Both the position numbers and the translations under genes were made by a program. 64,000 bases of DNA from Nitrospirota bacterium (lineage in GTDB: Bacteria; Nitrospirota; Nitrospiria; Nitrospirales; Nitrospiraceae). The DNA lies in NCBI GenBank assembly GCA_016219645.1, contig JACRLR010000016.1, positions 310,001 through 374,000 of the forward strand, written 5' to 3'. Below are positions 56,459 to 57,364 of the stretch, piece after piece (position 1 is the stretch's first letter; every line of letters begins with the position of its first letter). The notes below the pieces were generated by a model. The model made no database searches, was not told the origin of the DNA, and saw only the letters and a list, made by a program, of their open reading frames with translations.

Positions 56459-56893
56459 ATCTATTAGGATACGCCGAAGCCCCCCCCAAGTAAAAAATAA
56501 TAGGGAAAGAGAGGCTTGTGTTGCTGCTGCCGGAGGTTGGGGCGGAGGAGATAGACCTAAAGAAGCTCACAATGTGTCGTGTGGGAATGCTGTATTCATT
56601 CTGGATTCAGGTCGGATAATAGGCGTATTTCAATAAATCAACAGATCCGAACGAGAAATGTATAGAAAGCAGACCTGAATGTCTGTTGACGATGGCCCGT
56701 TACGCCTGGAGCTGAATAAGTCTGGGAAAACAAGGATTTAGTATTCGATAGAGCCTAGAACTTGTATGACGCGCACAGCTCTTCCCACTCACTCCTAACT
56801 CATGGAGTGGGAAGAGCCACGGCAACTTGCAGTCTTCTGAACTTTCACGGTACAGATGTCGTAGCGTGAAAGACCTACTCAACGGATTATCGT
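56459..56893. other. AT-richer intergenic stretch with two hairpins
   Basis: GCTCTTCCCACTC at 56778-56790 pairs perfectly with 56805-56817 (13 bp, loop 14). CTTTCACG at 56842-56849 pairs with 56865-56872. No gene is supported. Confidence 0.5.
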
Positions 56894-56923
56894 AAAATAC
56901 AGACAAACGCACATGCTGTGCGT
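56894..56923 (-). terminator. rho-independent terminator of the microprotein gene
   Basis: On the minus strand ACGCACA-GCA-TGTGCGT forms a perfect 7-bp stem, followed by TTGTCTGTATTTT. It starts four bases after the TAA of the microprotein. Confidence 0.75.
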
Positions 56924-56927
56924 GCCA

Positions 56928-57014
56928 TTATCTGTCGTATGGCGTAAACAATATCAGAGCTGCTCCCGCCACGAATACACCGACTAAGCCCGCCATGGGT
57001 AACCAGATTTCCAT
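56928..57014 (-). CDS. 28-residue single-helix membrane microprotein
   Basis: The protein starts at the ATG at 57014 behind a perfect AGGAGG (spacing six) and ends 87 bases later, with a terminator right after. It reads MEIWLPMAGLVG, then a hydrophobic FVAGAALILF and a short polar end (TPYDR). It is smaller than the CydX or CcoQ type of respiratory accessory subunits but similar in style. No family is recognised. Because the start, stop and terminator are so complete, the gene is probably real. Confidence 0.65.
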   Translation of the reverse strand: MEIWLPMAGLVGVFVAGAALILFTPYDR

Positions 57015-57364
57015 AATAACCTCCTAGGTTTGGTGGTGGATTTGACTATGGCTTACACTAATGTTGTTTATCATTCAGTTCGGTAGCCCGATATAATCAT
57101 TCGGGGGCGAAGTTACCACAAGCCACCGTTTATAGCAACTAATATAAACCAATGATTTTTTAGGGACATATTGCTGGATGGCCCCAACATCAATCATAGA
57201 CCGGCCAAAAAGAGGGGAGTCTTGTAGGAATGAGAAGGATCCGCTAAAGAATAGCCCGATGGAATTGCTTGTGACCGAAGCGCGAATTGAGTTTGTCTCG
57301 TGAGCTGGATACACTGGCCGATGGGCGGCTGGACCATGCCTCATGCAAGGTCTTGGAGATCCAG

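Follow-up and report, generated by a model that had tools for sequence, protein, structure and literature searches.

Is a reading frame of only 28 codons, placed between ordinary genes of a Nitrospirota genome, a real gene, and what might its product do? The frame lies in a 64,000-nucleotide stretch (the window; contig JACRLR010000016.1, positions 310,001 to 374,000, assembly GCA_016219645.1), where it is accompanied by the following elements.

56928–57014, minus strand: microprotein ORF of 28 codons plus TAA, with an ATG start; product MEIWLPMAGLVGVFVAGAALILFTPYDR
57020–57025, minus strand: Shine–Dalgarno (SD) sequence AGGAGG, 5 nt before the ATG
57015–57064, minus strand: conserved leader (..CATAGTCAAATCCACCACCAAACCTAGGAGGTTATT), from the alignment and the leader model
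57110–57138, minus strand: promoter-like block TTGCTA-17-TAACTT with a TG-extended -10, inside a motif common to cassettes elsewhere
56907–56923, minus strand: hairpin 3' of the stop, a probable terminator whose T-run is interrupted; conserved 3' element

Judged from the sequence, the ORF is a real gene and belongs to a family of ~30-residue single-helix membrane proteins. The complete membrane microprotein gene proposed in a preliminary description of this DNA is supported by intact family members, by purifying selection and by the co-conservation of leader, start and 3' end with the ORF. The ribosome binding site and ATG reported there were confirmed, with AGGAGG located 5 nt from the ATG and all 20 aligned leaders sharing GGAGG. 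The single hydrophobic helix was also borne out, the peptide reaching a top Kyte–Doolittle mean of 2.33 over a 19-residue stretch. The hairpin (56923–56907) is indeed present after the stop and contains a 7-bp stem and a 3-nt loop, but calling it a textbook terminator was an overstatement. It is plausible rather than textbook, because the T-run behind it is broken (TTTGTCTGTATTTT) and the ORF together with its 3' end folds no better than shuffled sequences (z -0.50). The leader shows no special folding relative to shuffles (z -0.28). The block at 57110–57138 would serve as the promoter.

The combination of these signals is rare by chance. Six ORFs of 15–60 aa in the window have an exact AGGAGG 4–9 nt upstream, and among them the microprotein ORF alone is hydrophobic (at least 1.6) and it alone has a terminator-like site. 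SD, hydrophobic ORF and terminator occur together once in the real window and never in 100 first-order Markov copies, which contain 4.82 SD-ORFs per copy, the hydrophobic ones amounting to 0.05 per copy. The surroundings had been described as gene-poor, which is misleading: the gene occupies a single ~830-bp gap between ordinary genes, bounded by the end of a 190-aa ORF (56458) and the start of a gene with an FGE-sulfatase domain (~57287). The window's own genome carries a single copy of the gene.

Relatives were found throughout part of the genus. A protein profile gave strong matches at 20 loci in 13 of 32 genus genomes (E 1.6e-12 or better), and the window sequence matched the profile, which was built including it, at E 8.2e-16. 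A leader-only model (20 loci) and a 3'-end-only model (13 loci; L027, L035 and L037 were omitted because their 3' end is different) each recovered one extra locus, at E 3.3e-6 and 2.1e-6, respectively. Both point to the same site in genome G013 (L121 1205–1297), where a divergent membrane peptide, MEAPFIILALLFIVFCGLTGLILGINNNPK, lies between the family leader and 3' end. The window's leader and 3' element matched these models, which contain the window sequence, at E 1.1e-10 and 1.7e-7. The search of related genomes for the helix with the same flanking signals, as had been suggested, gave 21 cassettes in 14 of the 32 genus genomes, all re-found by a profile that includes the G013 peptide. Named relatives are Nitrospira sp. 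RSF3, RSF11, CG24A and CG24E as well as other Nitrospira or Nitrospirae MAGs. Frame-disrupting changes in relatives, named beforehand as evidence against the gene, did not appear, since all 21 matched members are free of internal stops.

Several weaker candidates were rejected. Single-sequence matches in G024, G009 and G022 (E 0.17–0.49) do not have the C-terminal motif and did not come up again with the profile at E<=0.1, and a match in G012 (E 0.088) sits in a 532-residue frame with a stop. The leader model returned 48 matches, of which 21 are the cassettes and the other 27 have E 0.0189 or weaker; ten of the 12 inspected among these 27 are response-regulator-like genes, sharing mainly the SD region. 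Leader match L128 is a short secreted-type ORF, and L132 has no proper ORF. Hits of the G013 peptide with E values of 0.02 and above fall within long frames and were put down to chance.

Outside the genus, the profile including the G013 peptide found zero matches in the other 143 of 175 genomes of the same family, and the first profile found none beyond the genus in a phylum sample of 295 genomes. None of 21 pattern stretches from viral contigs was confirmed as a relative, and no relative was found in the plasmids searched. Among the genomes searched, the family is so far confined to one genus, in genomes with genes for ammonia monooxygenase (AMO; amo), the genus comprising comammox bacteria, which take ammonia oxidation through to nitrate. 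Gene callers usually apply a minimum length that a gene of this size does not reach, and a conserved gene under that limit is easily missed in every genome of a group. The genus of the window is probably GTDB Palsa-1315, which has been described as comammox clade B (PMC12625717, PMC11784365). Because this clade is described as having no pure culture (PMC11784365), genes confined to the lineage are hard to find by experiment.

The substitution pattern argues for a translated product. Compared with its syntenic orthologue in G030, the window ORF shows 10 synonymous and 2 nonsynonymous differences (0, 2 and 10 by codon position), indicating that this pair is under purifying selection. Comparing 17 of the 20 members in all pairs gave a pN/pS of 0.45 with no saturation correction; the three left out carry a 3-residue insertion, and the set did not contain G013. 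Other close pairs are less lopsided, among them G018a–G023 (5 synonymous versus 6 nonsynonymous) and G006–G025 (3 versus 4), still under the ratio of sites. Identity with G030 extends over 74 of 87 aligned ORF columns, while the flanks are lower and variable except for one upstream block of 36/40. This block spans 57131–57170 and shares positions with the promoter-like motif and with an inverted repeat of 80%. The family starts with ATG, GTG or TTG, each behind a conserved SD, and its core ORF spans 28–31 residues. M1, F14, I21, P25 and Y26 are invariant in 17 of 17 aligned rows; the divergent G013 peptide is without P25-Y26, its P-Y-D-K tail being missing. Conservation follows a helical periodicity, with the strongest angle at 105 degrees (p 0.038, uncorrected, from 13 chosen sequences). 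In addition, residue 2 is acidic and the overall charge is near-neutral, in which the peptide differs from cationic pore-formers.

The leader (..GTAGTCGAATCCACCATCAACCCAGGAGGTTATC) and the 3' hairpin element travel together with the ORF, and the neighbourhoods differ between cassette groups, with no linked partner gene. Neither a peroxiredoxin-like gene that lies close to some of the cassettes nor the shared neighbours of response-regulator and PilZ-like type were judged specific. Strong folding of the 3' end was seen in G014 (z -4.66); five other folded pieces were unremarkable (z -0.28 to -1.14).

The best explanation, to which we assign a probability of roughly 0.45, is that the peptide is particular to this lineage and serves a membrane complex as an accessory single-helix subunit or as a modulator, much like CydX or CydH. 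The free-standing mini-gene, consisting of promoter-like block, short strong-SD leader, ORF and terminator hairpin, would produce a single-pass inner-membrane peptide, whose Lys/Arg after P-Y-D/E would face the cytoplasm according to the positive-inside rule. The conserved helix face formed by V11, F14, A18, I21 and P25 may dock on a larger membrane protein or on a second copy, and the docked peptide would stabilise or tune its partner, a role that CydX, CydH or CcoM play in terminal oxidases. The partner would probably be a complex of the comammox Nitrospira energy chain that functions without the peptide in relatives lacking it. Packing of the helix on a partner is favoured by the helical periodicity, the aromatic/proline C-terminus, the near-neutral charge and the unmasked SD. 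Purifying selection, the invariant residues, the restriction of the cassette to amo-positive genomes of the genus and the existence of orphan genes for small subunits elsewhere also count in favour of this reading. Several observations speak against a subunit: the missing partner gene and differing neighbourhoods, sequence searches that matched neither CydX nor another small-subunit family, the divergent G013 member without the P-Y-D-K tail, the lack of the cassette in 6 of 20 amo-positive genus genomes and in 55 amoB-positive genomes of another genus, and an amo association that amounts to about one event. Moreover, loci that stand alone, occur in several or tandem copies and are often absent would suit a type I toxin as well. 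Should the peptide be a subunit, structures and proteomes of these organisms will contain a helix without an assignment, for which the family is a candidate.

Known small subunits offer parallels of different closeness. CydH/YnhF and CcoM are orphans of ~30 residues that add a single helix to terminal oxidases as accessory subunits, and the family is likened to them, by description only, in size, orphan status and single helix. CydX of cytochrome bd oxidase (37 aa) is described as a very short membrane protein with few highly conserved residues, as here, and some of its homologues are described as orphan genes outside the cyd operon, away from cydAB, like the free-standing family studied here (PMC4325964). 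In contrast to CydX, the family has its own promoter-like block, leader and terminator, and no CydX profile match. With 17 members as queries, Pfam gave no CydX and weak chance matches only (best E 0.01), and NCBIfam gave neither CydX nor a type I toxin, only BlyA (E 0.14) and PspB (E 0.18). The best PDB match, IsiA, is not significant (E 0.24), and the best PHROGs match (E 0.003) is to an unnamed family and is weak given 17 x 38,880 comparisons. No oxidase domain is present among ten window neighbours, so the window locus has no cydAB linkage. A surface survey of the literature on Nitrospira microproteins, comammox transcriptomes, AMO cryo-EM and Nitrospira CydX found nothing resembling the family.

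A somewhat unlikely alternative is a stress- or state-induced membrane modulator without a fixed partner, which would oligomerise in lipid and lower membrane potential or fluidity. The model for it is YohP of E. coli, described as a 27-aa protein that lowers membrane potential and fluidity; it is similar to the family in size and as an orphan membrane protein, by description only (PMC12719787). Specific regulation is suggested by the upstream motif common to some cassettes: the block TAGTTGCCnTnAaCAGGCtCTTaTGGTAT, read as a -35/extended -10 promoter, is found in 9 of 21 cassettes, in shortened form in G004, and is replaced by TTGACT-16-TATAAT in G016. However, the conserved aromatic/proline C-terminus and the one conserved helix face suggest contact with a protein.

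A type I toxin, whose translation would be blocked by an antisense RNA or by the fold of its own mRNA, is unlikely. The type I toxins Ldr, Ibs and TisB are small hydrophobic ORFs, multicopy or tandem and intergenic, and the Ldr and Ibs loci occur as tandem duplicates; the family resembles them in these features: its hydrophobic ORF is short and comes with a promoter-like block and a terminator of its own, the neighbourhoods differ, and absence is frequent. Tandem or paired copies exist in 5 of the 14 genomes (tandem in G006, G025, G027 and G028, with the promoter-like block before the first copy only; ~140 bp apart in G005), and two more, G018 and G019, carry two unlinked copies each. Furthermore, CCTCCC, which is complementary to the SD, occurs in several cassette 3' ends, but it is missing from the window's cassette. 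A scan for sigma-70-like sites found no shared antisense promoter-like site, only isolated ones, at positions that vary, in five of the 21 cassettes. The leader without special folding, the acidic second residue, the near-neutral charge and the NCBIfam result also stand against a toxin.

The subunit reading can be extended to a microprotein subunit that would have arisen in one comammox lineage, be made in pairs from a self-contained, copyable cassette, and tune AMO or a coupled respiratory chain. This more specific proposal we consider quite unlikely.

It is improbable that the peptide is a dedicated accessory helix of comammox AMO or of a directly coupled electron carrier in the lineage; an AMO subunit is possible and not required by the data. 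In its favour, amoC (19 of 32 genus genomes) or amoB (adding G030) marks 20 genomes as amo-positive, and the cassette occurs in 14 of these 20, so that all 14 cassette genomes carry amoC or amoB, and in none of the 12 amo-negative ones (naive probability 8e-5). Nevertheless, in a ribosomal L2-region tree of 29 genomes (without G003, G004 and G029) the amo-positive genomes fall on one side of one branch, with support of only 36. Since they are close to one clade, the association amounts to about one evolutionary event, and an independent-pairs test of it was unable to reach significance. On the same tree, the distribution of the cassette requires five changes. The six amo-positive genus genomes without the cassette include four under 85% complete, together with G026 (94%) and G031 (99%), and no cassette was found in 55 amoB-positive genomes of another genus in the same family; because the peptide is missing from all of these, no core nitrification enzyme strictly needs it. 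A search of 11 stretches that surround amo genes in seven genomes did not find the upstream block either. In G006, G025 and G027, the contigs that bear related tandem cassettes gave no amoC match. In G028, two AmoC-like genes (L030 3854–4657 and 5229–6272) are located ~2–4.5 kb from the tandem cassette.

A chance ORF within a conserved structured RNA is extremely improbable. The DNA-level conservation of leader and 3' end speaks for it; against it, third-position substitutions dominate in the comparison with the G030 orthologue (0, 2, 10), starts swap between ATG, GTG and TTG, and G013 retains leader and 3' end although its peptide has diverged, remaining a membrane helix. The sole match in an Rfam search of the window was a tRNA. 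Downstream of the gene, the same gap contains two strong inverted repeats, one at 56842–56872 (12 nt at 92%) and the other at 56778–56817 (13 nt at 100%), the latter also found in G030 (L024 8347–8382).
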